Source: a virus
Strand: one strand, 5' to 3'
Length of the DNA: 35,687 bases
IMG/VR virus record: IMGVR_UViG_3300015242_000033
Span: 1-35,687 of that record
Numbering within the stretch: the stretch's first letter is position 1; the number at the start of each line of letters is the position of its first letter. The position numbers were made by a program, and so were the translations under genes. The notes under the pieces were generated by a model. It was given only the letters and a program-made list of their open reading frames with translations, did not search any database and was not told where the DNA came from. Shown here one piece after another: positions 1 through 21,613 of this stretch.

Positions 1-404
1 ATTGAACTGGTCCAGCCAACGCACGCACCACTTTTGGGAGCAGACGGGGTTGTGATGGTAAATCCGCACGAACCTGCTGCTGCCGGTGCCGTGCAGTTTC
101 CAATCAGTTTGGTGTGGGAGTTCACCGTGAAGCCATTTACCGTAACAACGTCGCTGCCGTTAACGGTGACGGTCTTGTAATTGCCAACCGTCCCCGCTGG
201 GATAGACGGAGATTCATTGTACGTGCCTGCAAAGACTGTGCAAGTATCTCCCGCTACCATTGCGGTAGCACAGGCTTGGATTGTTGTATAGCCGCCACCA
301 CCTGCAGCCTTAACCGTACAGTTTGGCGACCCAATACAAGCAAAAGCCGAAATGGGCAATAGAAAAAGTATTAGGCTTCTAAGCATTAGAAGTGTTCTCT
401 TCAT
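1..404 (-). CDS. Secreted right-handed beta-helix-like protein, C-terminus cut by window edge
   Basis: The minus strand is open from an ATG at 404 to the window edge. The first residues form a typical Sec signal peptide: basic MKRT, a Leu/Ile-rich core, and an AFA cleavage site followed by Cys. The Cys is not in a strict lipobox, so lipoprotein status is doubtful. After it come GGGGYTTIQACATAMVAGDT and VFAGTYNE, the pattern that opens many right-handed parallel beta-helix proteins, then short Thr/Val/Asn beta repeats. It overlaps the upstream fibre-like gene by ATGA, so it is translationally coupled and probably belongs to the tail-fibre/spike module. Enzymatic activity (for example polysaccharide depolymerase) is possible, but no catalytic residue can be named from this part. 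Confidence 0.75.
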   Translation of the reverse strand, partial: MKRTLLMLRSLILFLLPISAFACIGSPNCTVKAAGGGGYTTIQACATAMVAGDTCTVFAGTYNESPSIPAGTVGNYKTVTVNGSDVVTVNGFTVNSHTKLIGNCTAPAAAGSCGFTITTPSAPKSGACVGWTSS

Positions 405-2515
405 AGAATACACTCCGTAAGAGAGATTTTCCCTGAGGCATCCGCAGTGTACCCTCCCCAATAAAAATCAAATCCTGTCGTGGTTGGCCCTTCCCCAGAC
501 ACGCCTGGCTGTAAAAGTGAAGGTTGCTGTGCGGTTGTGTCGGAGAGCGCAAATAGCGTGCCCACAAGATTGAGAACCAGCGGATTGGAGTTGACTACCC
601 GGCATACCGTCAGGAGATTGTACTGGGTAGATGTGTGTGTGCCACTCCCAGCGCTGCCAGCTACGATTGGTGTGCCGCCCTGTGCCGACGCTAACTCAAA
701 TTGACTCCCACTCAGTCCGGTAGAACTGACAAACAGAGGCGCGGTTGCTAGCACCGTAGCCACAACTACTGTACCGCTACATGTGGCCGTACCGCTGCTC
801 ATTGTTGCAGATGTAGGCGCGCTGGTATATCCAGAGCCTAAATTGGTAAATGAGAGATTAAATCCTCCAGGAAGAATGCCGGATGAATTTAGATAGACTA
901 CCGCCGTAGCCCCGCTACCTCCACCATTGAACGAACTGAGTACGCAGGTCTGCCCGACTGTTCCGCTTACGGTTGCGCCGCTGGTATAGGTACCGGAGGA
1001 CAACTGCACGTTGAAATTGGTAGGCAGGGTTCCTGTCGTCGTGAGTTCGACCGCTTGATTCGCCTTAAGCGAATTCGTAGCGGAGATAATAGGAGAGCCA
1101 TTCGTAAAGGTTACCGTCAGCGCTGCGTGGCCAATGTTCTCCTGAGCGTTGACCCGATAAGTCGCCCCGTTTATATAAGGCAGACACCCAATGGAGTTTC
1201 CCCCGTGACCCTCCAAATACAATCCGTTCTGGGCGCACGCTGTTCCGGCGTTGACGTGCATGTTTACATAATCTGTTCCGCCAGTGATTGCTCCTATCGC
1301 CCCACAGTCTTGAGTGCCGCCACTATTGCAGTTTGGAGTGGTATACCAGAAGCCGACTGATACAGACGGTCCAGCGCTTGGGATAGTCACGTTGGCGCTC
1401 CCGCAGGAAGTGGCTGTGCCAGCCCCATTCACCGTTGACGCACAGTGGAGCGTCAGGGCACCGGGATTTATGTAAGCCACATTTGCAGCTAAGACGGGTT
1501 CGGGCAAAGATGGAAACGCAGTAGTGTTTGAGCCAGTCATGGCAGCGGCAAGGCCAGTGGCGGTCCATACCCATCCCGCCGTACCGAAGGTGCTATTGCC
1601 AAGAGTAGTGCCGGTTGGTGTCACTCCATTAGATAAGCCGCTCATGTTGACGAACAGCGTTACGGGAAGCGCGGTAGAGGGAGTAGCTGCGCCGTTAATG
1701 GAGCCGATGAATCCCGTAGATGGGTTGAGATATTGACCGTTGACTTGATTCATTCCTCCGGCGTTTCCAGCAGGCACAATCCCATTCCATGTGCTAATAG
1801 CGTTGCTGGCTGGAGGAGGCGTACTTGAAGACTCCAGCGCAACAGTAGCAACCGCAAACGTTGAACTTTGCGAATAACTGAATTGCGGCGTGATTGCTCC
1901 GGCAGTCGTTTGAACTTTGGCCTCTTGTGATGCGGATTGACCACCTAAAGTAATAGCGAATCCCGTACCCGCCGTGTAGGTACCGGAGTTATTTCCACTA
2001 TCCACCATCATGCAAAGGATTAAGTCGCCGTTTACCGTTGTCGTCACTGCTGGACAACTTCTGGTACCTGAACCCGTTGTCGAAGTAGCAGCGCCCGATA
2101 CATCTACCGCCCCATTCCATCCCTGCCAATCTTGGACTGAAGATGTTAGTGAGATGGCGGAACCGCCCCAGTTCATCGTTATGGTACACGTCCCAGTGCT
2201 TGTAGCTTTTGTAATCCCAGAGATGGCCACCGAAGCGGCCATTGCGACCGAGCCACCAAAGGTATTGATGCTCCCGGTACACGCCCCTGAATCGGTAAGG
2301 GTGAGTGTTGACCCGGTGGACAAAGCCTGCCCGATGAAAGTAACCGCATCCCCGGATGTGACGCTGATCGTCTGATTCCTGATTGTGCTGCTACTGAAAC
2401 CAGACGCTTGACTGACGCAGGTATAGCCGGTGTACGCGGTGGAGGTGCAACCTTGCCCGAAGGCCGTCCCTGCGGCTCCCAGAAGCACCAATAGAGTTAG
2501 AAGTAGGCGTCTCAT
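401..2515 (-). CDS. Secreted beta-rich tail fibre/adhesin-like protein (704 aa)
   Basis: A 704-residue protein with a clear Sec signal peptide (MRRLLLTLLVLLGAAGTAFG, then Gln). The body is Ser/Thr/Gly/Ala-rich and low in charge. Residues about 45-230 look like one beta-sandwich domain ending in FAVATVALES. A Pro linker (about 232-236) leads to a fibre-like middle. Residues 465-628 carry a widespread phage-virion beta module (ALTVTFTNGS, TTTGTLPTNF, AGSAGSGTHT) that is split by an inserted Gly-rich domain containing GSGYTSAP. The likely role is host attachment or surface binding. The signal peptide is unusual for a virion protein, so a cell-surface product remains possible. It lies 3 bases after the 1583-residue fibre gene and overlaps the next gene by ATGA. 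Confidence 0.75.
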   Translation of the reverse strand: MRRLLLTLLVLLGAAGTAFGQGCTSTAYTGYTCVSQASGFSSSTIRNQTISVTSGDAVTFIGQALSTGSTLTLTDSGACTGSINTFGGSVAMAASVAISGITKATSTGTCTITMNWGGSAISLTSSVQDWQGWNGAVDVSGAATSTTGSGTRSCPAVTTTVNGDLILCMMVDSGNNSGTYTAGTGFAITLGGQSASQEAKVQTTAGAITPQFSYSQSSTFAVATVALESSSTPPPASNAISTWNGIVPAGNAGGMNQVNGQYLNPSTGFIGSINGAATPSTALPVTLFVNMSGLSNGVTPTGTTLGNSTFGTAGWVWTATGLAAAMTGSNTTAFPSLPEPVLAANVAYINPGALTLHCASTVNGAGTATSCGSANVTIPSAGPSVSVGFWYTTPNCNSGGTQDCGAIGAITGGTDYVNMHVNAGTACAQNGLYLEGHGGNSIGCLPYINGATYRVNAQENIGHAALTVTFTNGSPIISATNSLKANQAVELTTTGTLPTNFNVQLSSGTYTSGATVSGTVGQTCVLSSFNGGGSGATAVVYLNSSGILPGGFNLSFTNLGSGYTSAPTSATMSSGTATCSGTVVVATVLATAPLFVSSTGLSGSQFELASAQGGTPIVAGSAGSGTHTSTQYNLLTVCRVVNSNPLVLNLVGTLFALSDTTAQQPSLLQPGVSGEGPTTTGFDFYWGGYTADASGKISLTECIL

Positions 2516-2518
2516 GGA

Positions 2519-5500
2519 CTATTGCACCGTCGCCACATCAGGCGAGATTGTGACTAAGATGGCCGTGGTGGATGTCGCCACTCCGATACGCTGCACAAAA
2601 TGTCCACTGGAACCAGCGCCAGAAGCAGGATTGGTCTGTGTCAACGCACCGCTAGTAGCGTCCGAAACATAAATAGCTTGGCCAGCCGTGAATCCGCTCA
2701 ATCCGGTCACTGGGCCACTGAACACGCACACTGTTGCTGAGGACGCCACGCAATAAGCCGGGTTCGTCACTAGTGTTGGGACGATGGTTAGCGTTTGTGT
2801 ACCGCTGCCGGCCGAACCCGCCGAAACCGCAGACCCTCCGTAGGTCGCGCTAACGGTGAAAGGGCTGCCGGTTGTTATGACGTAGTAGGTTGTGGCAGTA
2901 GAGAAGTTCGTCGGCAGACTCCCGGTAGTCTGGAACTGCACCGCAGCGCCAACAATCAGTGTGTTGCCTACCGAGGCGATGTTAGCGCTTCCATTTGTAA
3001 ACGTCACCGTAAGCGCTGAAGGGATTCCGTAAGCATTTGCCGGAGTGAGTGTGCCGCCAATGTTATAATAAGCGTTTCCAGTTGTCAGGCCACTTCCACT
3101 AAGGGCACCTCCACTGCCCGCATTTGCCAACACAAAGGCATCTGTAGCAATCTTAGTCGTGTTGTCGCCTGCGGTTTGCGTGGTGGCTGTTGTTCCATTA
3201 GGAATCGCTGTGGTTCCCGTGCAGAGCACGTTGCTAGATACTACGGAAGTCAAAACCAAATTGTTGGTAGAGGGAGTGGCTGCGAACGGGCAGCCAATGG
3301 AGTCTGCGTTGTTGGCGTAAAAGTGGATGTTCTTGTTCGTAGTATCAATGCCGAAGTGCGATGTCGCGCTAGCCGTGAATCCGGCTGCTGTGGGAATCTT
3401 CCAAGTACCTGCTGAGAAGTCCTGTAGAAACGCGCCGTATGTATTGGCTTGGTCGGTGGAAACTGTCGTTGCTGGCAAATCAGCCTTACCGATGGACACG
3501 AAACTGGCCGTTCCTGTTGAGCCTGTATTATTCCCCCAAAACTTATGCGCCAATGTGGTAGCGCAAGGAGTTAATGTAACGGAACCAGTTGAGCCGATAT
3601 TGCAGAACAATCCTGCATCTCCCGTCACACCAGATACTGTACCAGCACCTCCGCAACTGAATACTCCAGCCACGATAGTGAGGGCTGTCGTGCAACTAGC
3701 GGGGAATGCCTCATAGGTAGGCACGCGATAGATGAAATAATCAACACCGTTCGAGTAATGCGGCGCGGCCCAATTCGATGGAATTAGAAGCGAAGTTCCC
3801 CCGTTAAGATTAAACCCGCTGGAATTCTCCGTCACCGCCCCCGCACCACGATTCCAGATGATGTACGGCATGTTGAAACCAAATCCAGTTGTGGATGGAT
3901 TGACTGCCGTATAGGTCTGCGCTCCAGCGTTCGTCGCGGTAATTACCGTTCCACGGTCATTCCAGTAGTTCGCCGCGCCGATAGTATAGGTTGTACCTAC
4001 TTGTGGATTCACTGGCACGCCTGGAAGTGGGCATGTCGGAGAAACAGCGGCGCTAGTAGGTGTTAGATACCCGCAAACATAATTACCGGGAGAAGTTGGC
4101 GCATTGAAGCCAGCAAGTGTCGCTGGAATACCGCCGCCATTATACTGAAGGGCATTGGTCGTGCCTCCAGGACTCGCCGCACCACCACCTCCAATCCCAT
4201 AAGCATAAGCGTTTCCATTTTTAAGAAATACGTGCATCCCTTGATTGTTAGGAATGATAATGTCGCCAGTTGCCCCATTCCCGTGCAACGTTCCAGCGCT
4301 TGGATGCAGTGTGGTAGTTCCCGTTTCGCTATATGCGTCCCATCCCTGCCCATCGCCGAGCGTGGTATCCACCGTGAAGGTGAGCGTGGCCTGCGCGTTC
4401 ACGATGCCTTCGTTGGCAGCTAACGTATGATTCGCAATGTAATTTATTGCCGTTTGCCTGATGCTAGGAACCCGAACCGTCACAACATTTCCACTCTTGC
4501 CGATCACGGTCAGATTCATGTTCTGCCCGATTTGCGTTCCGGGACTCAAGCCACTTAGGAATACCGAACCGAGAAATGGGCTGCCGCTGATTAGCGGTTG
4601 ATTCGCACTCGGAAGATTCCCGCCTTCGATTATGATGTCAGCATTCGTGGTGGCGTTCAAAGGCCCGAGATTCACCAATAGTGGAGCGGGACCAGTATCG
4701 TTTACAGCTTGGCTAATTTTGAATGCACCGCCCGTGTTTCCAACCGTAGCCGGAGTGACCATAACAATCGGCATGATGTTGCCCTGGCACTCTTCTCCCA
4801 TGTGGAAGTTGCCGAACAATCCAGAGGCAAAGGGAACGAAGGAATATCCTCTAGCGTAGCAACTTACGTAATCGAAATCCCATTCAAGACTGAATTTCGT
4901 AGCAAAAATGGGAGTCGCCGTGCGCCCAACGGTTACATTGTCAGGTCCACCTGCCCACGAAGTCTTCCGCATACTGCCGCCGAATCCACCGGCCACACTC
5001 GATTGGTAGTCATAGAAGGCGATGCTCATGTAATCGTTAGTGATGTTCGTGAAAAAGTTATCGTCTTCAAAAACCTGGGCCGCGTTCATTTGAGCGTTGA
5101 AGACACCGACGCCACCGTTGGTAGTCAGGTTAACGGATACTTTGTTCAAACCACCCGCGCTCTTAACCCAGATGCCGGGGTTTGCACCTTGAATCATAAT
5201 TGGGATGTGGACGCGGGTTGCGTTTGGAGGTTGGTTCATTCTCGCGGCGGAATTATCCGTTCCATACCAATTTCCGGTCAGTTGGAGCGTATCTCCCAAA
5301 CACACTTCCCCATCCTGAATAACCGCGTTAACCGAAGCCACGATGTAGCTGCTGGTCACAAAACAATAGTTCCCCGTACCAGAATTTTCTACCACCGCTG
5401 GAAACCGAATCGTGCCACCGGCTCCCGTGATGCTTGTTGAGTTTATAGCAGCCAAAGTTGCCAAAATTGCGGGTGCATTGTCGAATCTTGATGCTGCCGA

Positions 5501-7270
5501 TGCTACGCTCGTAGAAGCGTTATTTGCTAGAGTTAATGCAGTACCAACAATGTTTGTGATGGTCGTTACGAGCGTGTCATTCGTTGGCGTTCCAGAAGGT
5601 GTCGTTGGCACGAACCACGGACGAGGACCACTATCCATCATCGGAGAACCATAATCGTCAAAGGTATTGTAGGTTGGGTCGGTGTAGCCTAAGTTGGCTA
5701 GAAGGCTCATCTGCAAGAAGGCCATTGAGCCTGCCGTGCGCCCGTAAATGGCGTATTGGGTTCCGCCCGCTCCCGGCGCTGGCAGCACAACGTGATTACA
5801 CAGCCAGTAGGAAACCGTGCCGCCTGTAACTGTCGTTGTTGAGATACTACGCGAAGCATCAACTCCGCTCGTGTAAGTAAAATGTGTCCCGTCAACAACA
5901 GATGTGACAATCTTCCATCCACCGAATTCAGCATCATCCGTACTTCCTTTTAGAACGACCATGCAACCAGCAGCCAGATTCGCCGTAGAACCAACTGTTG
6001 CCGTGAAAACATTGGTTGTTCCACTCGCGCTGCTTGTCCATGCGGTGCTATTTGCGCCGAGCGTGGCATTCCCGGTAGATGTGGTTCCGTTAGGAGATGC
6101 TGCTGTTAAACCTTGTCCCTGATCGCGTAAGGCTGCTGAATAAGCATAAGGCGTGCTGCCTGCACCAGCAGGCACCGTAAAACCCAACCCGGTAGGTCCC
6201 GCCGCGCAACTAGGTGTCACGGTCGGAGCGGTTGGCGTGGTCATTGTTTGGGCAGCACCAGCACCGGGGATAGCGAACCCATCTCCAATCTGTAGTCCTG
6301 TATTGGCACTTATAACGGCGGCGCTCGTACCCGAAGTGATGGTCGTCGTCGGTGAAGGAATTGCCGAAGGATTAATCGCCCGAGCGCCGAATCTACGAAT
6401 GTCTACGCCACCTGGATTTGGGCCACGGGCCACTAAATCCGCTACTGGTAAATTACCATTGGCGGCAGTGAATTGATTGCTGGTATCCACTGTCAGGCAA
6501 ACATCCCCTGTATTTGCAGCATTTCTCCAGCAGTCGCCCGATTCATTGTTTGCCATTCTCACTGTTCCGCTGGTAGCGGATGGACTAGCAGCGCTAATGA
6601 ATGGAGCTGTAGCGGAACCAGTTGTCACAGTACAAGTGGAACCCAAAGCACACGCCTGTCCATTCACAGTCGTTGACGCGGGGACGGAAGAAGTGACCGT
6701 ATTCGATGTCGCTGCCAACGGAACTTGTCCCGCTGTCATACCAGAAATATTGTTACCGCCTCCACCGCTGATTAAAACCCATATTGTACCGTTCCATTGG
6801 CATAATTCGCGGATTGCACCACCACCGCCATTACAATTAAGCCCCGTTCCATCCGTGACGATGGCCAAAGCATTCGTGACTGGCGAAACAGGCAAACCAG
6901 CGAAAGTGGATGTCGTACCGGAACAGGAGCTATTCAAATTGCAAGGCACGCTGATGATGAAAGGTCCGCTAGATACAACGCCCGTTCCTGTAACTGTGTA
7001 AACATAGTTGTTCGGCAAAGCCCAAAAGCCCCAGTTGCCCAATGAATCGGACTTCGTGGGATTGGTCATTGGGATGGAAAGTCCAGGGTCAGAAAATAGA
7101 TTGATGGGCGATTGGCAAGGAATTCCTGTAGAACCATACGCGCAAACGGTAATTTGGGCACCCGCCAATGGGCGGCCTGTTGAGCCAAGCAAGATATTCT
7201 GATATTGGCTGCCTTGAGCAAAAAGTACGCTCGGGAACAGGATTGCCAGAAAGAGTAGTAGTTTCTTCAT
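2519..7270 (-). CDS. Giant tail fibre/spike protein with signal peptide and beta-helix (1583 aa)
   Basis: The largest gene in the window. Residues 1-19 are a Sec signal peptide (MKKLLLFLAILFPSVLFAQG). Residues 25-110 resemble the carboxypeptidase-regulatory-like or fibre N-terminal fold (GRPLAGAQITVCAYG, LFSDPGLSIPMTNP, DSLGNWGFWALP). PGGVDIRRFGAR at 287-298 and DNAPAILATLAA with GAGGTIRFP at 597-624 are the two halves of a pectate-lyase-superfamily beta-helix entry, separated by about 300 inserted residues. The C-terminal third has common fibre modules: AHKFWGNNTGSTGTASFV, TATTQTAGDNTTKIATDAFV, the LPTNF module, and a last TGLSGFTAGQAIYVSDAT domain. The probable role is receptor binding or polysaccharide recognition. 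It is coupled by ATGA to the upstream 341-residue gene. Confidence 0.8.
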   Translation of the reverse strand: MKKLLLFLAILFPSVLFAQGSQYQNILLGSTGRPLAGAQITVCAYGSTGIPCQSPINLFSDPGLSIPMTNPTKSDSLGNWGFWALPNNYVYTVTGTGVVSSGPFIISVPCNLNSSCSGTTSTFAGLPVSPVTNALAIVTDGTGLNCNGGGGAIRELCQWNGTIWVLISGGGGNNISGMTAGQVPLAATSNTVTSSVPASTTVNGQACALGSTCTVTTGSATAPFISAASPSATSGTVRMANNESGDCWRNAANTGDVCLTVDTSNQFTAANGNLPVADLVARGPNPGGVDIRRFGARAINPSAIPSPTTTITSGTSAAVISANTGLQIGDGFAIPGAGAAQTMTTPTAPTVTPSCAAGPTGLGFTVPAGAGSTPYAYSAALRDQGQGLTAASPNGTTSTGNATLGANSTAWTSSASGTTNVFTATVGSTANLAAGCMVVLKGSTDDAEFGGWKIVTSVVDGTHFTYTSGVDASRSISTTTVTGGTVSYWLCNHVVLPAPGAGGTQYAIYGRTAGSMAFLQMSLLANLGYTDPTYNTFDDYGSPMMDSGPRPWFVPTTPSGTPTNDTLVTTITNIVGTALTLANNASTSVASAASRFDNAPAILATLAAINSTSITGAGGTIRFPAVVENSGTGNYCFVTSSYIVASVNAVIQDGEVCLGDTLQLTGNWYGTDNSAARMNQPPNATRVHIPIMIQGANPGIWVKSAGGLNKVSVNLTTNGGVGVFNAQMNAAQVFEDDNFFTNITNDYMSIAFYDYQSSVAGGFGGSMRKTSWAGGPDNVTVGRTATPIFATKFSLEWDFDYVSCYARGYSFVPFASGLFGNFHMGEECQGNIMPIVMVTPATVGNTGGAFKISQAVNDTGPAPLLVNLGPLNATTNADIIIEGGNLPSANQPLISGSPFLGSVFLSGLSPGTQIGQNMNLTVIGKSGNVVTVRVPSIRQTAINYIANHTLAANEGIVNAQATLTFTVDTTLGDGQGWDAYSETGTTTLHPSAGTLHGNGATGDIIIPNNQGMHVFLKNGNAYAYGIGGGGAASPGGTTNALQYNGGGIPATLAGFNAPTSPGNYVCGYLTPTSAAVSPTCPLPGVPVNPQVGTTYTIGAANYWNDRGTVITATNAGAQTYTAVNPSTTGFGFNMPYIIWNRGAGAVTENSSGFNLNGGTSLLIPSNWAAPHYSNGVDYFIYRVPTYEAFPASCTTALTIVAGVFSCGGAGTVSGVTGDAGLFCNIGSTGSVTLTPCATTLAHKFWGNNTGSTGTASFVSIGKADLPATTVSTDQANTYGAFLQDFSAGTWKIPTAAGFTASATSHFGIDTTNKNIHFYANNADSIGCPFAATPSTNNLVLTSVVSSNVLCTGTTAIPNGTTATTQTAGDNTTKIATDAFVLANAGSGGALSGSGLTTGNAYYNIGGTLTPANAYGIPSALTVTFTNGSANIASVGNTLIVGAAVQFQTTGSLPTNFSTATTYYVITTGSPFTVSATYGGSAVSAGSAGSGTQTLTIVPTLVTNPAYCVASSATVCVFSGPVTGLSGFTAGQAIYVSDATSGALTQTNPASGAGSSGHFVQRIGVATSTTAILVTISPDVATVQ

Positions 7271-8292
7271 TGGTTAAATTTCTTTCCCATTCTTTCTTGC
7301 AAAGTTAGTTTCTTGCTGGTTGCTCCACGGGCAGCATGGTACGTGCCTGCATCGCTGGCTTCTGGCCGCAAAATATCCATCTGTCGTTCGTAAGTCGCCC
7401 AATCTTCAGGAGTGCCGATAAGCGGCCTGAGCGGTTGCGGGAAGGTAGTAGATTCCGAGCGTGAACGAGCAGTGTCGCTGTAAGGTTTTGTACCGCGATT
7501 AAAGATAGCATTCTGTTCAGCGCCAGAACGAGAATAGAAATCCTCGGTGGATGGGAAAGGCGCTCCCGATTCTATTGGTGTGCGTTTTGGCAAGAAAGCA
7601 TCGGCTAGCGTAGGCCCTAGAGCACCACCAACTAATCCAGCTTCCCACTTAGCCGCAGGAGATAAGGCCATCCCTCCAATGAATCCGCCAACTCTAGCGA
7701 CATTCCTCGTTCCCGGAGTTAAAGCATTTGATGGAGTCCGTACACGTTCTGCAATCGCCGGAGTGATTGCGTCTCTAGCGGCTGCCACTTTACTTGGTGC
7801 TTCTGCCCCTCCAAGAATTGTGGATGTTGCTCCCAATACTTGTCCCGGACTTTTTTCCTTTATACCCTGCTCAAGATTAGAGGTCATGCCATGAATCGGA
7901 TTTACCGCATTGAATGGGTCCTTGAGCACACTTCCTGCAAAATTCACAACCCCAGAAAGCATTTGCCCACCTGTTTCTAACGCTCCCGATAGTTGTCCTC
8001 CATTATCTTCCGCCGCCGCTATTTTGTTGGCATCTAGTCCCATTCCTTTAGCGACTTGCATCCCGAAAGCTCTACCGGGAAGATATTTTGATTTTACTGA
8101 TGGTTGTAATGCTCCGGGCAAAGGTGCTCGTGGAACGGATGGACGATTAGCTACCTGTTGCGCCTCAGTTTGCTTGAAAGCATCAGGAAAATCTTTCGAA
8201 ATGGCTGCCTGAATATCCTCATCCTTCGCGTTTGCAGCGAACTTGCCGTAACTCCCATCTGGCAGCTTTATGTACTGAACATCATCAGCCAT
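7267..8292 (-). CDS. Candidate internal virion/ejection protein (341 aa)
   Basis: The N-terminus (VQYIKLPDGSYGKFAANA, then DEDIQAAISKDFP) matches a small domain that I recall on several phage virion-associated proteins. The rest is Ala/Gly/Pro-rich with amphipathic stretches (about 95-230) that could insert into a membrane, and a basic, polar C-terminus. No enzymatic motif is visible. Its place between Gln-rich internal-virion-like genes and the fibre genes is where short-tailed phages keep ejection proteins, so that role is inferred. It overlaps the upstream gene by TAATG and the downstream fibre gene by ATGA. Confidence 0.6.
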   Translation of the reverse strand: MADDVQYIKLPDGSYGKFAANAKDEDIQAAISKDFPDAFKQTEAQQVANRPSVPRAPLPGALQPSVKSKYLPGRAFGMQVAKGMGLDANKIAAAEDNGGQLSGALETGGQMLSGVVNFAGSVLKDPFNAVNPIHGMTSNLEQGIKEKSPGQVLGATSTILGGAEAPSKVAAARDAITPAIAERVRTPSNALTPGTRNVARVGGFIGGMALSPAAKWEAGLVGGALGPTLADAFLPKRTPIESGAPFPSTEDFYSRSGAEQNAIFNRGTKPYSDTARSRSESTTFPQPLRPLIGTPEDWATYERQMDILRPEASDAGTYHAARGATSKKLTLQERMGKKFNQ

Positions 8293-9563
8293 TATTGCTT
8301 TCCTAGATTCGTGTAGTCTCTAACTTTTGCTCCCGGTGGTGGTGCGTTACTTCCGCCCTGTGATGGAACTGCCCCACTCTTTTTCCCGTAGGTATAAGCC
8401 GCATCCTCGATTTGCTGTAAGGCATCATCCAGATTGGAAAGTTTGTCGTGGATGAGCTTGTCGCTATCCACCCATACGTTAGGCAAATGCTTCATAGCTA
8501 GATTCAATGCCTGTACCGCTCGGCTCGAACCTTTCAGGACGCGTGCAGCACCTTGTACGCGGGTCAATTCCAACTTGGCTATAGTATCGGCGGCATCCCC
8601 AGCCTGAGTGCTGATGCCGATTGCATACTTAGCTCTATCTCCAGCATGTTTGAATGGCGTATTGTCGCCCTTCGTAGCATCAAATTGCTGCATCAATTCC
8701 TGAATCTGGTCGTGGACTGGCGCCGTCTCCATCAAAGTCTTTTGGGCTGTTGGGCCGAGAGCCTCTCCATCCTGAGCTAATTTCTGCGTTCTTAGGCCAA
8801 TGCCTTGCTTCCGCAAAGCGAGGGATTTGGCAGCTAAATCTCCCCTTTGGGCTAGTGTCTGTTTGGCAAGGTTTAGTTTCTGCTGGTTATTGAGAACGGC
8901 TGCCTGAGATGCCGCTGTCTTTTGGTTGGTGTTGGCTACACCTGCGCTTTGCTGGGCAGACATTTCTTCCTGTGTAAGTGGCCGCGTCCCGCTTAGATTC
9001 CCATTCTCATCCCAGTCACCAGCAAGCCCTTTGGCTCTGAGCGTAGATTCAATCTGATTTTGTTTTTGCTGCTGGGCAGTGTCTAATTTATTCTGTGCCA
9101 TTGCTTGGCGGCCACCACCGTACCAATCTGCCTGATTGTTACGTAAGCGATTTAGCGTATTTTGATTCTCCATCTGACGGCCCATGTTCAACTGATTGCC
9201 AAGTAGTTCCTCTTGTTGCATCAATGGCTGAATCGCCCGTTGCCGCTGATAATCACCCGTGATTACGGAACCTAGTTGCGGATTCCGGCGAGATACAAGA
9301 GCACCAAGTAATGCCCGTGGAGTGCTGACTGGATTAGGCTGTAGAGCTGCTCTTAGTTTTGCCCCTGTATCCAGATAATCCTGATACTCGTTCGTTCCTT
9401 GCAGGCTTGGCTGGACACGCGGTGATGTTGGCGCGATAGCCCCTGAATAGTCCGTCCTGCCACCAATGTCCGGCGCTGGTCCCATGTCCGAAGCATCATC
9501 TATCGGATAGCTGAAGTTTTGCTTCCGTGCGCCGCTAAAGAAGTTTGCAGGTAGTATCGGCAT
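8292..9563 (-). CDS. Gln-rich coiled-coil internal virion-like protein (423 aa)
   Basis: The first 60 residues are irregular and Pro/Gly-rich. Residues about 95-290 are dominated by Gln, Asn, Ala, Leu and Lys with long helical or coiled-coil character (for example QQKQNQIESTLRAKG and NNQQKLNLAKQTLAQR). The end is Gly/Pro-rich. The composition resembles internal core or ejection proteins of short-tailed phages more than a soluble enzyme. It sits in a run of three similar genes downstream of the nozzle-like gene. No homologue can be named with certainty. It is separated by 6 bases from the upstream 78-residue gene. Confidence 0.6.
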   Translation of the reverse strand: MPILPANFFSGARKQNFSYPIDDASDMGPAPDIGGRTDYSGAIAPTSPRVQPSLQGTNEYQDYLDTGAKLRAALQPNPVSTPRALLGALVSRRNPQLGSVITGDYQRQRAIQPLMQQEELLGNQLNMGRQMENQNTLNRLRNNQADWYGGGRQAMAQNKLDTAQQQKQNQIESTLRAKGLAGDWDENGNLSGTRPLTQEEMSAQQSAGVANTNQKTAASQAAVLNNQQKLNLAKQTLAQRGDLAAKSLALRKQGIGLRTQKLAQDGEALGPTAQKTLMETAPVHDQIQELMQQFDATKGDNTPFKHAGDRAKYAIGISTQAGDAADTIAKLELTRVQGAARVLKGSSRAVQALNLAMKHLPNVWVDSDKLIHDKLSNLDDALQQIEDAAYTYGKKSGAVPSQGGSNAPPPGAKVRDYTNLGKQ

Positions 9564-10417: not shown

Positions 10418-10860
10418 CAGTCCCTCACGTCGAACTGGAACCCATATTTAGTCCCACCAGTAACAGTACCAATGAGCGTTATAATCAACGCTTGTCCGGT
10501 CTGCGTGTAGCTGAACCCGAGTGCGCCATTCCCGCCATTGCGGACAACAATAGCAAAAGGTGTGGCAAAAATACCACTAGGAAAGTTCAAAGTGACACTG
10601 GGATTAGCAACAAAAGCCCCTGTACCGACCGAAACTACGAACGAACCACGCTTGAAAGTGCCACTCAATGCCGAAATTGACGCGCCAGTGCCAAAACCGC
10701 TGCCTACGGAGAAGTTCTGTGGTTTTATTGCATCACCTGGCCCTAAATGCTGGATGATGTCGTTTACCGCTGAAATCGTGCGCTTGTGGCTTTCATAGTT
10801 ATGTTGGTTGTCTCTCAGGCCAGCAATGGTCTGTACCGCAATGGGACGAGGTACGCTCAT
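10417..10860 (-). CDS. Small virion protein with C-terminal beta-sandwich (147 aa)
   Basis: The first 45 residues look helical (NYESHKRTISAVNDIIQHLG). From about residue 65 the chain alternates beta strands and glycines, ending in SVTLNFPSGIFATPFAIVVR, GFSYTQTGQALIIT and KYGFQFDVRD, which resembles the small beta-sandwich seen at the ends of phage fibre or knob proteins. It overlaps the nozzle-like gene upstream by ATGA and the internal-virion gene downstream by TGATG. A tail accessory or knob role is plausible. The exact family is not recognised. Confidence 0.55.
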   Translation of the reverse strand: MSVPRPIAVQTIAGLRDNQHNYESHKRTISAVNDIIQHLGPGDAIKPQNFSVGSGFGTGASISALSGTFKRGSFVVSVGTGAFVANPSVTLNFPSGIFATPFAIVVRNGGNGALGFSYTQTGQALIITLIGTVTGGTKYGFQFDVRD

Positions 10861-13787
10861 GCGTTAATCCCACGGACAGGCGCGAATATAGCTTCTCTAA
10901 GGAACATCGAAAAGCCTTGAATCATAAAATCATCCGTCAAGCCAGTAACCTCGAACTTAATGGCCATACGGTAGTGCTGCTTCTGAATCTGGCGTTCCAT
11001 GTTCTTCAGGCCTCTAGGGTCAAGTTGCCAGCCTCGAATCGGGTAAAATGAGCCTTGATCGCCAATCCTCAGAACCATCTGAAGCGTGCCGGAACCAACA
11101 GCATTCGCTACTACATAGGAGTAATTCAAGCGCGTCGGATTCTTGAAATAGCCGGATTGCCAGTAGGAGTCTATGGGTGTCAATCCATTCCCGTAATCGT
11201 TTAGAAGCGCTGGGTCCAGCTTAAAGATCGCTCCGAAGTTGAAGTTATTCCCAACGTAGAGAACTTGTGAGTTGTCGTTTTGCAGGCAAAGATTGATGGC
11301 GTTGGCTTGCAAGGTCCACGGACACCATTTCCTGCCTATTCCATTGTTTTGTGCTGGGTCGCCCCAGCCTTCCGTGTAATCCACGACTAGAACAGTGTTG
11401 TTCTGCGTTGCGCTCGCTCCGAGAGGCACATTCACGTAAACGCGCTTCTTCGTGGTATCTACTTTCACATCAACTAGATGGCCCAGCTTCCAGTTGATGG
11501 AATCCCACGTTGGCTGAATCTCATTGGAAAGCAGGTTGTTTTGCTGCCAAATCTGGCCACCTGTGAACATCCACAATCCACTCTGTGCGGCAATCACCGC
11601 CCACTCGTCGCCTAATCCCACACCTCGGGGAGACGGCGTGCCAATCTTGGAACTTACTTCGTCAATCTCCCATGCGTTCGGCTCGTTCTGGCCATCGTCG
11701 CGGGTCACAAAAATGCTGCGTTCCTTTACGATGTAGAAGAAATCCCTGAGGATGAAACAATTACGGACTGCTTGCCCATTCTCTTCCGCTGGTTGCTGGA
11801 AGCCTGTCAGCCCATCGAAGGATTCCGGGTCCTCCACGTTCGAGAAGCGGATTACGCTCGTCTCGACTGGATTCAGCGTCGGATAGAATTCAATCTCGTC
11901 CACATACACGGAATCGCCATTGGAAAGGTTTGTGGCAAAGACGCTGATAATTATGTCGTTTGGGATGCTGGCTGGCAGAACGGAAAATGCAGCTGTGAAT
12001 TTCCCAAAAGTCCCTATGTTGACTTGCGTCTGAAGATTGACGGTCAACGATTGCGAATAACCCGTGGAAGCAGCGGAAAGCCGGATGATGACCTGCGCCC
12101 CGAAAAGGATATTGGTTTTACTGAACCTAGCGGAAACGGTGTAGGCCGTGCTGGGCGAAAGAATCGCATCGCCAAGATAATCCTCGAAGGCAGATTGCGT
12201 AATCAGGCCTTGCGTGACGTGAACTCCATCGCCCGTGATGGCGTAGGCATCGCCGGTAACGGATGAAGCTGCCTTACCTCCTCCAAGATAATTGGTTGGG
12301 TCGGGCGTCCAGCCAAGCGGACAGATATTCGCATCCTGCGAGAAACCGCCATCGAAAGTCATATTGACGAAGTTCTGAATCTTGTTAGTTTGGCCCCAGG
12401 TAACAAGCCTGGAATTGTATTCAGCGAATCCCGTTACTTCGCCTAGCGTCAGTAACTCAAATGCTGCATTGACGTTTATCCCATCCAGCAAGTCGGAATC
12501 GCCGAAATTGAAAATGGCGGTAGTTGTCGTGTTGTCGTTGATGATGGTCGAAAAGACAGTTCCAACACCTGAAGGGATATAAAAGAATTGCCCGCTGGAG
12601 ATAGGCGTTATCGAAACGTACCTAGCTATGATGTTCGCTGGGCCAATGGGTATTTGGCTGGCGAAAAGCATCCTATTCCCGTTTGCCGTGAAGGAAACAG
12701 GCCGCGATGGAGGAGTCAAAGTACCTTCGATTGTAAGAAATTGCACGCTGACCTGATGTACGCCACCCACGATATTGCCCAAAAGTGTTAGCGTGCCACC
12801 GGAGCCATTCGCCGTTCCCACAACTCCTATATTCAGGATAATTCCAAGAAAAGTGACACTGCTTTGCACGTAGGCGAAAAATCCTACTATGGGCAGAGCC
12901 GCTCCATTGTATGCCGTGGGGGTAAAACCTGCGGAAAGGAAAGTCTCTCCTGTTTTCAAGACATTCTGCCAATTATTGAAAAAAGGAGACTTTGTAAAGT
13001 AGGCGGCTGCTTGGGATTGCGCTGTACCGCCAGAACCGGCCACCAATCCATTCGTTCCAAGCGAATAGGTGAATTTGCTCGTTCCGGGGATGGGAATTAC
13101 GGGGAATGTTCCATTGTAGTCGCTAGGCGTCACCCCAGCAATCACAACCATTTCTCCATCTAAGATGGTTGCTCCGGCAATGTTCGTTACAAGCGGAGAA
13201 GTAGCTGTCCCTACCGTCACTAGGTTCCCTGATTGGGAAATGGAGGTAATCGCTCTAACTGGATTTTGCGAGGCTTGCGCTGCGACTCCCGTATTCATCG
13301 CGAAAATCTGATTGTAATCGGTGACTACTGGCCCGACTCCAGGGCCATCTTGGCTTACCCGGTAGACATTTGTTCCGTTGTATTGCCGGGGAACATCCTG
13401 CCCTTGCTTGCCGTCGCCCAATGCCAGCCACTCCCTACCAAATAGCGTGACAGAGTTAGGAGTTAAGTTTTGCAGCAAGGAACCTGTAACAAGGAAAGTG
13501 CTTCCGAATGTTACATTTTCATAAAACAAGTTCCCGAGACTATCTATAGCTAGATTCTGGACATTGCCATTCGGTTGCTGATAGGACTTCGTGTAGTTGA
13601 TATTCCCTGTGCTGATTCCATTCGTGAAGGCTGTGGAAGTGCCGGAACGCTTCTGCACACGCCCCGGCACGAATTCCACATTCTTACAATCCGGCGACAT
13701 GAAATGAGGAATATCGGTTGCATTCGAGAGGGTGTTCAACCCTCCGAAGTTATCAACCGCTATTGACTCAAGTCCGTCGTAGGACAT
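10857..13787 (-). CDS. Tail nozzle/stabilisation-type protein (976 aa)
   Basis: The N-terminus (VDNFGGLNTL, SPDCKNVEFVPGRVQKRSG) matches the opening of large tail proteins of short-tailed phages that form the nozzle or stabilise packaged DNA (T7 gp12 and P22 gp10-type in function). The fold is predicted mostly beta (propeller-like repeats such as NGNVQNLAIDSLGNLFYE and GDEWAVIAAQSGLWMFTGG). Residues about 178-258 hold an extra Ig-like module (GVTPSDYNGTFPV, TSKFTYSLG) also found in the adaptor. The C-terminus (NYSYVVANAVGSGTLQMVLR) is a typical end domain of this family. It follows the adaptor and small beta protein, as expected. The family assignment rests on pattern only. Confidence 0.7.
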   Translation of the reverse strand: MSYDGLESIAVDNFGGLNTLSNATDIPHFMSPDCKNVEFVPGRVQKRSGTSTAFTNGISTGNINYTKSYQQPNGNVQNLAIDSLGNLFYENVTFGSTFLVTGSLLQNLTPNSVTLFGREWLALGDGKQGQDVPRQYNGTNVYRVSQDGPGVGPVVTDYNQIFAMNTGVAAQASQNPVRAITSISQSGNLVTVGTATSPLVTNIAGATILDGEMVVIAGVTPSDYNGTFPVIPIPGTSKFTYSLGTNGLVAGSGGTAQSQAAAYFTKSPFFNNWQNVLKTGETFLSAGFTPTAYNGAALPIVGFFAYVQSSVTFLGIILNIGVVGTANGSGGTLTLLGNIVGGVHQVSVQFLTIEGTLTPPSRPVSFTANGNRMLFASQIPIGPANIIARYVSITPISSGQFFYIPSGVGTVFSTIINDNTTTTAIFNFGDSDLLDGINVNAAFELLTLGEVTGFAEYNSRLVTWGQTNKIQNFVNMTFDGGFSQDANICPLGWTPDPTNYLGGGKAASSVTGDAYAITGDGVHVTQGLITQSAFEDYLGDAILSPSTAYTVSARFSKTNILFGAQVIIRLSAASTGYSQSLTVNLQTQVNIGTFGKFTAAFSVLPASIPNDIIISVFATNLSNGDSVYVDEIEFYPTLNPVETSVIRFSNVEDPESFDGLTGFQQPAEENGQAVRNCFILRDFFYIVKERSIFVTRDDGQNEPNAWEIDEVSSKIGTPSPRGVGLGDEWAVIAAQSGLWMFTGGQIWQQNNLLSNEIQPTWDSINWKLGHLVDVKVDTTKKRVYVNVPLGASATQNNTVLVVDYTEGWGDPAQNNGIGRKWCPWTLQANAINLCLQNDNSQVLYVGNNFNFGAIFKLDPALLNDYGNGLTPIDSYWQSGYFKNPTRLNYSYVVANAVGSGTLQMVLRIGDQGSFYPIRGWQLDPRGLKNMERQIQKQHYRMAIKFEVTGLTDDFMIQGFSMFLREAIFAPVRGINA

Positions 13788-14177: not shown

Positions 14178-15128
14178 CTAACTCCAACCGAAACCTGTCC
14201 AGTTATTGCGTCTCCTGTTGTTTGCCCTGCGCCGCGAAGGTTGAAACTGCCTTGCATGCGCCTGCAAATTCAGAAGTTCTTGCATGTCCTGCTCGAACAT
14301 ATTCGTGAAGATTGCGGTAGCCTGTGAATTTCTGCTTGCCGCCGCCATCTCCGCCGTCTTGCTGGCAATGGCGTCTTCACAGCCGCGAATCGTGAATACT
14401 CCATCGGCTCCTGATACATCAGGGAAAGCCACCGAATAGCGCATCCTAATGTCCGTGGCGTTCAAAGCCCCGAGAAAGTAGATTCCATCCTCATACCATG
14501 CAAAGACGCGGTTAGTTGCTCCCTGAGCGGCATTGGGAATGAAATCCACAGGAGACATCGGCTGGGAATTGAAATAGGTCGTGCCTGCAATCCTGTCCCA
14601 TAAATCGCGTGGAGCCAGAAAATCCACAGGCAACTGTGGAGATGTGGAATCGGTCAGCGAAAGTGTTCCTTGTGGAACATTGAAATAGGTGGTTTCTGTT
14701 ATCTGGGAACGGCTGCCGGATTGCATCAGCCTTGCCTGAACCTTGCGATATGCCTTGTTTGCGAAGTTCAGGAGCACCTGGTCCGTGAACACGTCTCCTT
14801 GAATGATTATAGAAACCACTCCATTTCCAGATGAAGCATTTGGAAGGGATGGCTGAACGTAAGTGAATGTATTGGCAGTAGGTACAGCAAGAACTGTCTG
14901 CGTTCCGTTGAAACTTGAGGTTGACACAGACTGCACCTGCACGATATTTCCGATTTGGAGGCCATGCGCCACCGTTGTTGTGATGGTCGTAATGGTGCCA
15001 GCGCGTACTGCCCCTGTAGGCCCGATGGGGATATTGCTCGGCACATCAGCATCAAGGAGCAATGAGCGTACAAGGCTGAAGACCTCCGCTCCTGAAGGAT
15101 ACGCCGATGTTGCGAGAACTGGGGACAT
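14178..15128 (-). CDS. Head-to-tail adaptor (gp11/gp4-like, 316 aa)
   Basis: Residues about 112-140 (DQVLLNFANKAYRKVQARL) are the amphipathic helix that marks the helical-bundle adaptor joining portal and tail in short-tailed phages (T7 gp11 or P22 gp4-type). DFLAPRDLWDRIAG, GIYFLGALNATDIRMRYSV and GCEDAIASKTAEMAAA follow in the family order. Residues 38-107 are an inserted Ig-like module (AHGLQIGNIVQVQSVS, FNGTQTVLAVPTANTFTY). The C-terminus is Arg/Asn-rich (RRRANNRRRNN). The start overlaps the upstream stop by TAATG. The next gene begins 43 bases beyond the stop of this one. Confidence 0.75.
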   Translation of the reverse strand: MSPVLATSAYPSGAEVFSLVRSLLLDADVPSNIPIGPTGAVRAGTITTITTTVAHGLQIGNIVQVQSVSTSSFNGTQTVLAVPTANTFTYVQPSLPNASSGNGVVSIIIQGDVFTDQVLLNFANKAYRKVQARLMQSGSRSQITETTYFNVPQGTLSLTDSTSPQLPVDFLAPRDLWDRIAGTTYFNSQPMSPVDFIPNAAQGATNRVFAWYEDGIYFLGALNATDIRMRYSVAFPDVSGADGVFTIRGCEDAIASKTAEMAAASRNSQATAIFTNMFEQDMQELLNLQAHARQFQPSRRRANNRRRNNWTGFGWS

Positions 15129-15749: not shown

Positions 15750-16307
15750 TTAACTGAACTTCGTTATTTCACTCATATCCGGCACCACTATATGGGGCTG
15801 TCGCATGACTTGCGAAACCGACATGTCGTTAATCCTGTCTACTAGCCTTTGCTGGCGAGCCGCCTCTTCCTTCTCGCGGCGCTGCTGTGCCGCTTCACGT
15901 TTGATTCGTTCCGGCAATTCCCGGTTTAATTTGGCCGTCGCTACAAGCGCATCACAAATCGTTTCGGTCAGCGGAACAAATGCCTTTGTGGTAGGAGTTT
16001 CGATTACCCGCACTAATTCGTATTCACCTTCTCGCGGGAATGGCCCTAAAAGCTCTATGCGCTTACCATTGAGATAGATAGTGAAATTCTGTTCCCATAT
16101 TTCAGGACTGTCATAGTTTTCTGGTGGGCAAAGCATCTCAAAGACGTAGCGTTCCTTCGCCTCTGGATATTTGAGACGTTCTTCGCCGCCTATCCAAGTC
16201 ATGCGGTCGCATCCGCGCATAACCCGGAAGAGGGGCTTGCCATTGGGTGCAAGCCCCCCTATTTCCCTAATGCGCTTTTGCAAGCGGAATGGAATGGGTC
16301 TAATCAT
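15750..16307 (-). CDS. Unknown protein with charged C-terminal helix (185 aa)
   Basis: An ATG at 16307 forming TGATG with the capsid stop is preferred to the TTG one codon earlier. The N-terminal half is mixed alpha/beta with aromatic residues (FRVMRGCDRMTWIGGEERLK, FEMLCPPENYDSPEIWEQNF). Residues about 128-160 are a strongly charged helix (ELPERIKREAAQQRREKEEA). No known motif. Its place just after the capsid gene suggests a head-associated or regulatory role, but nothing in the sequence fixes it. Confidence 0.55.
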   Translation of the reverse strand: MIRPIPFRLQKRIREIGGLAPNGKPLFRVMRGCDRMTWIGGEERLKYPEAKERYVFEMLCPPENYDSPEIWEQNFTIYLNGKRIELLGPFPREGEYELVRVIETPTTKAFVPLTETICDALVATAKLNRELPERIKREAAQQRREKEEAARQQRLVDRINDMSVSQVMRQPHIVVPDMSEITKFS

Positions 16308-17590
16308 CAATAGATACTAGTACTTCCAGTAAGTGGTAGGGCTAATGCCTTGATATAGCTACCACTTAGTGGATTTCTGTTGTATACCTGTAGCCCGGCT
16401 TTAAGGTAGAACATTGCCGTACTTACAAGCTGTGTACCACCCGAATACTGCGGCCAGATAATCTGGTCGCCAAACTTCACAAACCCCGTATCCGTGGCCA
16501 CGATGCGGCCCCAGAAATCAAGATTCAGGAAGTCAATGCGGGTCCGGTCCTGGTGGATAGATTGGCGCACAGGGACGTTGCTCATCTTCAAGCCGCCCTG
16601 GTTGTTGAACATCAAATCCACTTCCTGGTTGCCGGATGGGTCCTTCCAGATTGCGGATTGGGTGATGGCCAGCGCTTCATACGCATCGGCTTGGGATGGG
16701 TGCATGTAAGCTACGAGTTTCGATGCTCCCGATTCAAAATACTTGTCTCCCAAATTGATGCGGATACGGTTGAGCGCTGCGCGGACAAATGCCGTGGTAA
16801 GCGCCGAAGAGTTGGCGTTTACCGATGGCGTAACGATGTTCGAGATGTTTGCCCGGTTCAAGCCCATCCATGTTCCGCTCGTGGCATCCGACTGATGGTA
16901 CTGGATACCGAAGAGAGACGATTGAATGGTGAGTGTGCCAGTCAAGCCGCCGATAACGAGCAAGTCTGTGGCAATTGTTCCGCCCGGTGCCGCGTCAACC
17001 GTGATGGTATGCCCTACACGGTCAATGGCGGTTACGTTTGCGGAGCCTCGATTGGTGGTCAGAGCTGCGTTATATACCTGCACGTTCTGGCCAATCAAAA
17101 CGAGTTCTTCCTTGAACCCATCCGTGGTCATTGTGAAGGTATTGGTGGATACGCTGGTAATGGTGCCAATGACGCCGTTGCCAGCCGTATTGAGCAGCAT
17201 ATCCTGCTGGGCGCGGAAGGCTTCGATGGACAAGCGCATAATCTCGCCAGTCACCGTCTTAACGCCGCGTTCCGCTCCCGTGGTGGCATACTGGGCCAAA
17301 AGCGTCCAGCTATAGCCGCCAGTGAAATAGATAGGCGTAAGAGTAGCCACGTTCCAGATAGGACCTGCTGTGGTGCCGAGGGCCACGCCATCCATGCTCA
17401 CTTGCTGGAAAGTCCCTGAAATCTGGGTCAGCAAGGGTACACGGGTAGCGCGGTTGGAGGCGGGGTCGGCTTCCTGCTTTTCCAAAAACTGGAGCAGGGG
17501 CGTATCCACTTCCAGAAGTTCCGGGATGCCCTTTTCATAAACGATAAGCTCACGCTCAAGTGGTTGGGCGTTGGCTTCAACTGTTGCCAT
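16307..17590 (-). CDS. Major capsid protein, HK97 fold (427 aa)
   Basis: The protein has the layout of HK97-fold capsid proteins of short-tailed soil phages. An N-terminal helix (about 8-40) is followed by an E-loop-like stretch (VPLLTQISGTFQQVSMDGVA). The spine helix follows (ERGVKTVTGEIMRLSIEAFR, 107-126). An inserted beta domain spans about 141-214 (GTITSVSTNTFTMTTDGF, NVTAIDRVGHTITVDAAPGG). The P and A domains include LVAYMHPSQADAYEAL, VDLMFNNQGGLKMSNVPVR, and a final beta strand. Position (portal, scaffold, capsid) supports it. AAAGGA lies upstream of the ATG at 17590. It is expected to be the most abundant virion protein. Confidence 0.85.
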   Translation of the reverse strand: MATVEANAQPLERELIVYEKGIPELLEVDTPLLQFLEKQEADPASNRATRVPLLTQISGTFQQVSMDGVALGTTAGPIWNVATLTPIYFTGGYSWTLLAQYATTGAERGVKTVTGEIMRLSIEAFRAQQDMLLNTAGNGVIGTITSVSTNTFTMTTDGFKEELVLIGQNVQVYNAALTTNRGSANVTAIDRVGHTITVDAAPGGTIATDLLVIGGLTGTLTIQSSLFGIQYHQSDATSGTWMGLNRANISNIVTPSVNANSSALTTAFVRAALNRIRINLGDKYFESGASKLVAYMHPSQADAYEALAITQSAIWKDPSGNQEVDLMFNNQGGLKMSNVPVRQSIHQDRTRIDFLNLDFWGRIVATDTGFVKFGDQIIWPQYSGGTQLVSTAMFYLKAGLQVYNRNPLSGSYIKALALPLTGSTSIY

Positions 17591-21272: not shown

Positions 21273-21613
21273 TAGTTGGAAACTACCGTCAATACATAAG
21301 GCCCTGCTCCAGCCGTTGCGTTCAAGCGATACCATGCATTCGCAATCGCTGGTGTCAATGTTTTCGCGGGCGCGGCGGCAGTCAGAAACGCCACGCTAAG
21401 TTTGGTCCAAGTAACTCCCTTATCGAGACTGACTTCCACATCACCGCTCAAACTTGTGATGGTTCCAGTGGCCAGAAATAATACGCTGAAATCTCCGCCA
21501 GTAGCGTCGGGCTGAAAGGTAAAGGCGTTCCCCGGAGTTCCAGTTGCTCCCGCCGCATCCACGATGAATGGAACATTGTTGGGAATGACATAAGGTGTAT
21601 TGATTTGCGCCAT
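21272..21613 (-). CDS. Small beta-sandwich structural-like protein (113 aa)
   Basis: The frame runs to 21655, but the ATG at 21613 overlaps the upstream TGA (ATGA), so that start is chosen. The product (MAQINTPYVIPNNVPFIVDA, then SGDVEVSLDKGVTWTKLSVA) is made of regularly spaced beta strands with no charged helix, like small fibre or decoration domains. It precedes portal by TAATG. A minor structural or receptor-related role is inferred. I do not recognise the family. Confidence 0.55.
   Translation of the reverse strand: MAQINTPYVIPNNVPFIVDAAGATGTPGNAFTFQPDATGGDFSVLFLATGTITSLSGDVEVSLDKGVTWTKLSVAFLTAAAPAKTLTPAIANAWYRLNATAGAGPYVLTVVSN

Follow-up and report, generated by a model that had tools for sequence, protein, structure and literature searches.

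The coat proteins of filamentous phages are virion proteins made with signal peptides, and the tail spikes of phage P22 are the last parts to attach and can be supplied to particles that are already complete. The proteins of phage diversity-generating retroelements lack signal peptides according to one report (PMC6199706), and no work on signal peptides of tailed-phage fibres was found in the titles and the beginnings of abstracts of the papers listed. Five phages of Tunturiibacter (Acidobacteriota) have been published (PMC11924767), and the phrase "signal peptide" is absent from the main text of that paper. The stretch analyzed here, referred to as the window, comprises the 35,687 bases of a virus record (IMGVR_UViG_3300015242_000033, positions 1 to 35,687) and does not belong to a bacterial contig; its left part is a virion block on the minus strand. 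It holds four genes for fibre-like proteins with predicted Sec signal peptides: P0002, P0001 and a truncated third gene at the end of the block, and P0004 between terminase and portal. These genes are tentatively read here as a cassette that passes horizontally between soil tailed phages and encodes fibre or spike proteins as part of their late structural operon. Its products would be exported and dock onto virions at lysis. The phages carrying this cassette probably infect Acidobacteriota.

Predicted signal peptides on four fibre-like genes

The first-pass annotation had placed Sec signal peptides on the three consecutive genes at one end of the window. Their N-termini had been read correctly and pass a calibrated scorer (4.59-4.92). 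The positions given for the genes were also right, with the qualification that all three lie on the minus strand and that 3-404 represents the first 134 residues of a gene leaving the window. A fourth gene, at 21822-24278, encodes an N-terminus of this type and had been overlooked.

The scorer is home-made and rule-based, and looks for a positive n-region, an uncharged hydrophobic core and an A-x-A-type site, with a cut-off of at least 4.0. It was calibrated on 97 genes of Escherichia coli K-12 labelled by localisation, and at this cut-off passes 12 of 16 signal-peptide proteins, none of 61 cytosolic proteins, 6 of 19 multi-pass membrane proteins and the only lipoprotein. Among the 23 minus-strand open reading frames (ORFs) of the window four pass (4.51-4.92), all of them fibre-like, and the other 19 lack any candidate. 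The four proteins have the positive n-region, hydrophobic h-region and A-x-A-type site that characterize substrates of Sec and signal peptidase I. The lipobox of lipoproteins ([LVI]xxC) is absent; the sole Cys at +1 is that of 3-404 (AFAC), and the homologue of this protein in the related record L162 has no Cys there. When residues 2-60 of the four N-termini are shuffled, 32 to 155 per 2000 shuffles (1.6-7.8%) reach 4.0, because the composition itself is hydrophobic.

The predicted cleavage sites share a further feature. The pattern [AVSTGLICF]x[AG]Q, which was picked after the window had been inspected, occurs within residues 11-45 in 24 of 29 signal-bearing proteins of at least 450 residues from 16 soil contigs, against 4 of 75 other proteins of the same contigs. 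A complete chromosome from the same phylum as G001 (whose title reads Acidobacteria) has it in 22 of 34 proteins with a predicted signal and in 20 of 163 without one; in E. coli, it is present in 5 of 16 signal proteins. Gln just after the cut is thus the local style of secreted proteins, a feature to be anticipated if the signal is cleaved but not if the segment is a structural helix; the signal peptides appear to match the cleavage style of the host. Later stretches of membrane-helix hydrophobicity are mostly missing from the signal-bearing proteins of the soil set, with one borderline case in P0001 (19-residue mean of 1.84). Since the signals look genuine, export is likely, which is unusual for tail fibres; the products are very probably exported by Sec and cleaved by signal peptidase I.

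The label "beta-helix", also given to the three proteins, has no profile behind it, as no significant fibre or beta-helix match was obtained for them in Pfam or PHROGs. In Pfam, none of the signal-bearing window proteins, P0004 included, has a significant match, while PHROGs returned nothing for P0001, P0003 and P0004, and one family of unknown function for P0002. With no profile match to one, the signal-bearing proteins are not assigned to any named fibre family. Tail fibre and tail spike families are too diverse for an absent profile match alone to exclude fibre identity, and the term "fibre-like" is used here on the basis of position, the domains of relatives and low-complexity beta-type sequence.

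Recurrence in relatives and place in the virion block

Relatives were chosen by homology to the terminase, to a virion protein without signal, or to fibre proteins with a signal and domains of such proteins, and never by signal score. All 16 soil contigs picked in this way carry at least one signal-bearing protein of at least 450 residues, 15 of them by script and G404 by eye via an in-frame ATG. The script fails on G404 as the called start lies far upstream, and this contig was added by hand; one passing protein, G400 3859-5454, is probably false and was kept among the 29 mentioned above. The closer clade of the terminase large subunit (TerL; at least 43% identity) was examined in eight contigs of at least 25 kb, seven of which hold a frame of 770-1343 residues with the N-terminal domain of P0002. 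In all seven, a signal-like N-terminus stands directly before this domain (scores of 5.08, 4.61, 4.61, 4.44, 4.17, 4.0, and 3.8), and the eighth contig, G398, stops before the fibre locus. Over all loci the domain was found in 14 contigs, 8 of which are rows of the search alignment, with a signal of at least 4.0 in 12 of the 14 and of at least 3.8 in 13; the fragment in G274 (L154) shows no signal. Seven further contigs contain the C-terminal domain of P0004, and each of them bears a signal, which in L002 is internal. In the distant TerL clade (31-35%; ten contigs, G405-G414, with collagen-type fibres), none of 48 proteins of at least 450 residues passes the scorer.

The cassette recurs in the record IMGVR_UViG_3300027908_000029 (L162/G422), an otherwise unrelated phage. 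This record shares with the window the three genes and their order, each gene with a signal, and differs in its terminase, portal and head proteins, which show no similarity to the window at E 1e-3. The orthologue of P0001, with a signal peptide of its own, is 67% identical over 707 columns; it is preceded by a protein sharing the C-terminus of P0002 (72%) and followed by a full-length homologue of the truncated third gene (1053 residues; 63% identical over 123 comparable columns). These three genes lie inside a run of five signal-bearing genes. Between the two P0001 proteins 7 of 20 signal residues are identical, versus 66 of 99 over the first 100 mature residues. Since the signals diverge faster than the mature parts, yet both score as signals, this comparison suggests that selection maintains the signal property while its sequence drifts.

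The virion block of the window runs from the terminase through the portal, the major head protein, the virion structural protein 10857-13787 and four small-to-medium proteins to the three signal-bearing genes at its end (Table 1). Four-base overlaps join neighboring genes at 7267/7270, 401/404, and 24275/24278, and we infer from gene content, not from transcripts, that the signal-bearing genes and their neighbors form one late operon. Read from the terminase, the end of the block encodes proteins of 976, 147, 203, 423 (no Cys), 341 (no Cys), 1583 (signal) and 704 (signal) residues, followed by the partial signal-bearing gene. The corresponding order in G397 is 1065, 176, 159, 528 (no Cys), 397 (no Cys) and 762 (signal) residues. 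In G405 it is 607, 216, 239 and 2357 (0.1% Cys) residues followed by collagen-type proteins of 420 and 937 residues, without signals, and G414 ends with 1759 (no Cys) and a collagen-type protein of 1326 residues, again without signal. Judged by this gene order, the signal-bearing genes of the window occupy the fibre place at the end of the virion block, which in relatives holds ordinary fibres. The ordinary fibres of G405-G414 resemble them in this position and differ in having collagen-like starts and no signal peptide. In G399-G403, the signal-bearing genes are found instead between the head genes and the phrog_3287-type protein. No match to an integrase family was found among the scanned proteins of the window, which is a fragment.

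Table 1. Features of the window, with predicted N-termini (a slash marks the predicted cut)
Feature	Coordinates	Strand	Basis or signal	N-terminus
Third cassette gene, N-terminal 134 aa only (rest beyond window)	3..404	-	signal peptide ~339-404 (22 aa), score 4.92	MKRTLLMLRSLILFLLPISAFA/CIGS
P0001, 704-aa fibre-like protein	401..2515	-	signal peptide ~2456-2515 (20 aa), score 4.59; 16 Cys in mature part	MRRLLLTLLVLLGAAGTAFG/QGCT
P0002, 1583-aa fibre-like protein	2519..7270	-	signal peptide ~7217-7270 (18 aa), score 4.76; relatives in L002, L012 and 7 TerL-relatives	MKKLLLFLAILFPSVLFA/QGSQ
CarboxypepD_reg-like N-terminal domain of P0002, invariant Cys pair	6899..7213	-	alignment A3; PF13620 in 7/8 members	
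Virion-block protein upstream of P0002, no Cys, no signal; 4-base overlap with P0002 start	7267..8292	-	ORF inspection and signal scorer	
Virion-block protein, no Cys, no signal	8292..9563	-	ORF inspection and signal scorer	
Virion structural protein	10857..13787	-	phrog_3287, E 6.7e-14	
Major head protein	16307..17590	-	phrog_14242, E 1e-6	
Portal protein	18879..21335	-	phrog_156, E 1e-4	
P0004, 818-aa fibre-like protein between terminase and portal	21822..24278	-	signal peptide ~24225-24278 (18 aa), score 4.51	MRRFLPALLLLFAPLAFA/QNQT
C-terminal P0004 domain with two invariant Cys; jelly roll of TNF/C1q-like type in a low-confidence model	21825..22397	-	alignments A4/A5	
Terminase large subunit	25124..26608	-	phrog_979, E 1.3e-44	

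Two other proteins of these blocks were noted by eye. Window 15128-15739 (minus strand), between head and tail genes, encodes a Cys-rich protein of 203 residues with 8 Cys and a CMHCG-type motif, which looks zinc-ribbon-like. An ATP-grasp-like ORF lies in the virion block near the fibre genes in L002 (5213-6487), L012 (1663-3006) and L006 (18-1229).

Cultured phages and the host

Besides the environmental contigs, two cultured phages of Tunturiibacter carry the trait. In Tunturi 1, gp12 (4.59), gp14 (annotated as tail spike; 5.22), gp16 (4.28) and gp17 (annotated as virion structural protein; 5.05) pass the scorer, with gp13 (3.67) below the 4.0 cut-off, and the signal-bearing genes lie between the head genes and the endolysin. 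Tunturi 2 is like Tunturi 1, with five such genes, and is not independent evidence because the two are close relatives. The genes are annotated in order as hypothetical, hypothetical/tail fiber, tail spike/pectin lyase, hypothetical, and virion structural protein, where "tail spike" and "virion structural protein" are annotation only. No large fibre-annotated protein without a signal was found in the structural block of Tunturi 1. As judged from these predicted signals, the trait occurs in infectious phages of Acidobacteriota. Tunturi 3 and 4, set beside Tunturi 1 and 2, make a natural control pair on one host genus. In Tunturi 1 gp17 (L187 19474-23028), the domains CHB_HEX_C_1 and Fn3_assoc exceed the Pfam cut-offs and Beta_helix matches below the threshold, which suggests a carbohydrate-related role.

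The host of the window is likely a member of the Acidobacteriota, because a 73% identical copy of the P0004 C-terminal domain is found in a phage-like contig binned with an Acidobacteria metagenome-assembled genome (MAG), a copy of the N-terminal domain with its signal is found on a complete chromosome of this phylum, the signal style agrees, and two isolates share the trait. The MAG binning is weak host evidence, since the contig from which L014 comes itself resembles that of a phage. Proof of the host through prophages in the phylum was attempted and dropped, as too few genomes matched (1 of 396 with A2 and 2 of 396 with A3). Two further loci were recorded. G001:C17 (JABCZL010000017.1; L090-L096) is a 123.7-kb contig in an Acidobacteria MAG that appears phage-like by eye, with a tape-measure-like ORF at 108714-111023 and a Ku-like ORF at 76510-77355, both labels being given by eye and not by profile. 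On a complete chromosome of the phylum, the signal-bearing fibre-like gene G226:C1 713890-717255 (L153, L156) has within a few kb an ORF that looks integrase-like by eye (721711-722874), and is perhaps a prophage remnant.

Acquisition from secreted proteins of the host was another suggestion of the first-pass annotation. A resemblance to host proteins is supported in part, by the CarboxypepD_reg-like N-terminal domain of the P0002 family (7/8 members) and by the A-x-A or A-x-G site before Gln, as in the proteins with predicted signals on the chromosome of the Acidobacteriota phylum (22/34).

Proposed export and assembly, and comparison with known systems

The conserved domains carry invariant cysteines. 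Both Cys of the P0002 N-terminal domain are kept in 8/8 members of alignment A3, and the two of the P0004 C-terminal domain in 7/7, in an early and in the last predicted strand. The structure model of the latter is of low confidence (predicted local distance difference test, pLDDT, of about 60 over residues 73-191); its best VIA-align hit has a Z of 9.1 and a root-mean-square deviation of 2.6 over 112 residues, with Z of 7-9 to TNF-like/C1q-like folds in tied rows, and a sequence search of solved structures gave nothing useful. The median Cys content is 1.79% in mature signal-bearing proteins (n=30) versus 0.88% in others (n=168; p 1.2e-6). This enrichment and the conserved pairs fit oxidative folding without proving it.

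The L002 relative of P0002 is a fused protein of 1739 residues, with a domain of about 105 residues joined in frame ahead of the signal (L002 8780-9190). L006 encodes the same domain as a separate gene (3767-4258) that ends at the equivalent place. A TTG start inside the L002 domain would yield MRLFVVCFVLFLVASFANA/QTTN (score 5.36) and would give a free signal-bearing form. The fused domain has one weak match, to a PHROG of unknown function, and its structure model was discarded (pLDDT 43). Among 50,697 phage records, no relative was found for P0002, P0004, the L002 fibre, the L006 small protein or window 10857-13787 (P0001 was not queried), and the N-terminal domain of the A3 type gave one partial match, to a Nocardia phage.

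The signals, their persistence despite drift, the operon position and the conserved Cys pairs are read directly from the DNA; from these, export in vivo, disulphides and presence on virions are proposed as follows. Late in infection, the fibre genes would be translated along with the rest of the structural operon, and the signals would direct their products through Sec. Signal peptidase would cut before Gln, and the exported fibres would fold outside the cytoplasm with disulphides, a step that is rather probable. Lysis would then mix the compartments and let the fibres join the virions. As neither the window nor the structural block of Tunturi 1 was found to hold any other large fibre-like gene, receptor-binding fibres are the most likely identity of these proteins, and their docking onto virions when the envelope breaks at lysis is put forward with some reserve. 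It is also possible, if doubtful, that tailed phages of Acidobacteriota follow a two-compartment assembly, in which receptor-binding fibres are exported via Sec and folded oxidatively in the periplasm and the virion is completed at lysis; the L002 fusion could tie the compartments together.

Several points weigh against export and docking of the fibres. Tail assembly is normally cytoplasmic, and export would therefore keep the fibres apart from the virions until lysis. High Cys content is not specific to the signal-bearing proteins, as the portal of the window has 1.8% without a signal, and two of the six collagen-type fibres listed without a signal have 1.8-2.1%. The L002 signal is internal, behind the domain of about 105 residues. 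No signal was found on the tail proteins scored in the first 50 kb each of Tunturi 3 and 4 (L188, L189), and since they share the host genus, the host does not require the trait. Finally, disulphides are described on the tail, the sheath and the receptor-binding proteins of phage Milano in PMC10811340, and these presumably form without export.

That the signals are an artefact of mis-called starts or chance hydrophobic N-termini is hardly credible. Speaking for it are the home-made scorer, shuffled N-termini of equal composition that reach the cut-off, and G400 3859-5454, which probably passes falsely; against this stand the 4/4 fibre-like genes and 0/19 others in the window and the recurrence in 16/16 contigs and two isolates, with 0/48 in the contrast set. 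An uncleaved anchor inside the virion or a membrane, instead of an export signal, is unlikely: the 1739-residue L002 protein keeps the hydrophobic segment internally and multi-pass membrane proteins also pass the scorer (6/19), while the positive n-region, the short h-region, the conserved A-x-A or A-x-G junction before Gln directly ahead of conserved mature starts, and the lack of a further strongly hydrophobic stretch in most mature parts argue for cleavage.

The closest competitor shares all the evidence for export and differs in the fate of the products, which would be adhesins or polysaccharide-active spikes, expressed late and secreted, with a role in clearing exopolysaccharide, in masking receptors on debris or in preventing superinfection. 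The runs of consecutive genes exceed the usual need of a tail (five in G422 and five in Tunturi 1), Tunturi 2 gp14 is annotated as a pectin lyase, and the C-terminal domain model resembles TNF-like lectins and carbohydrate-binding module folds in tied rows. This role is nevertheless somewhat unlikely, as the genes sit at the locus of the ordinary fibres of relatives, and no other large fibre-like gene was seen in the window, which like most relatives is a fragment, or in the structural block of Tunturi 1, so that the virion would lack a receptor-binding protein. Lysogenic conversion, with secreted host proteins as cargo expressed from a prophage, is very unlikely. It has a precedent in Lom of phage lambda, a signal-bearing outer-membrane protein encoded between the tail spike and tail fibre genes according to PMC12309495, and is favored by the CarboxypepD_reg-like domain and by the one chromosomal copy in an island of an Acidobacteriota-phylum genome. 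Opposed to it are the arrangement as three to five large genes in a row within the late block, coupled through short overlaps, the few matches among the phylum genomes (1/396 and 2/396), and the absence of Tunturi 1 and 2, themselves carriers of the cassette, from the isolates for which PMC11924767 reports recombinase or integrase genes. Instead of a separate cargo gene outside the late operon, the window has co-directional genes with 4-base overlaps to their virion-block neighbors, at the fibre place in the gene order. Neither lysogenic conversion nor superinfection exclusion, both first suggested, is supported as the principal role, in view of the co-directional late block, these overlaps, the fibre locus, and the position between head genes and endolysin in Tunturi 1. 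Capsule modification, a further first suggestion, or modification of exopolysaccharide is a possible role.

If the exported proteins are virion fibres, part of tailed-phage assembly takes place outside the cytoplasm, where disulphides and periplasmic chaperones are available to the fibres. If the proteins are secreted and not on virions, phages of one of the most abundant phyla of soil release adhesins or spikes before lysis. Either way, "tail fibre" would be a misleading annotation for these genes, and their expression in a reducing cytoplasm might fail. The two published isolates, Tunturi 1 and 2, make the question testable.

Among the known systems, filamentous phages share virion proteins with signal peptides, and differ from the tailed phages described here in being assembled and extruded through membranes. 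The nearest cultured parallels are Tunturi 1 and 2 (PP887698, PP885685), podoviruses of Acidobacteriota, which are like the window in having signal-bearing proteins in the structural block, five in each isolate, and unlike it in the fibre proteins themselves, between which no similarity was found at E 0.01 (Tunturi 1, 3 and 4; first 50 kb each). Lom of phage lambda is comparable as a signal-bearing protein encoded between tail genes (PMC12309495), but it is an outer-membrane barrel expressed in lysogeny and a single cargo gene, and not a fibre cassette.

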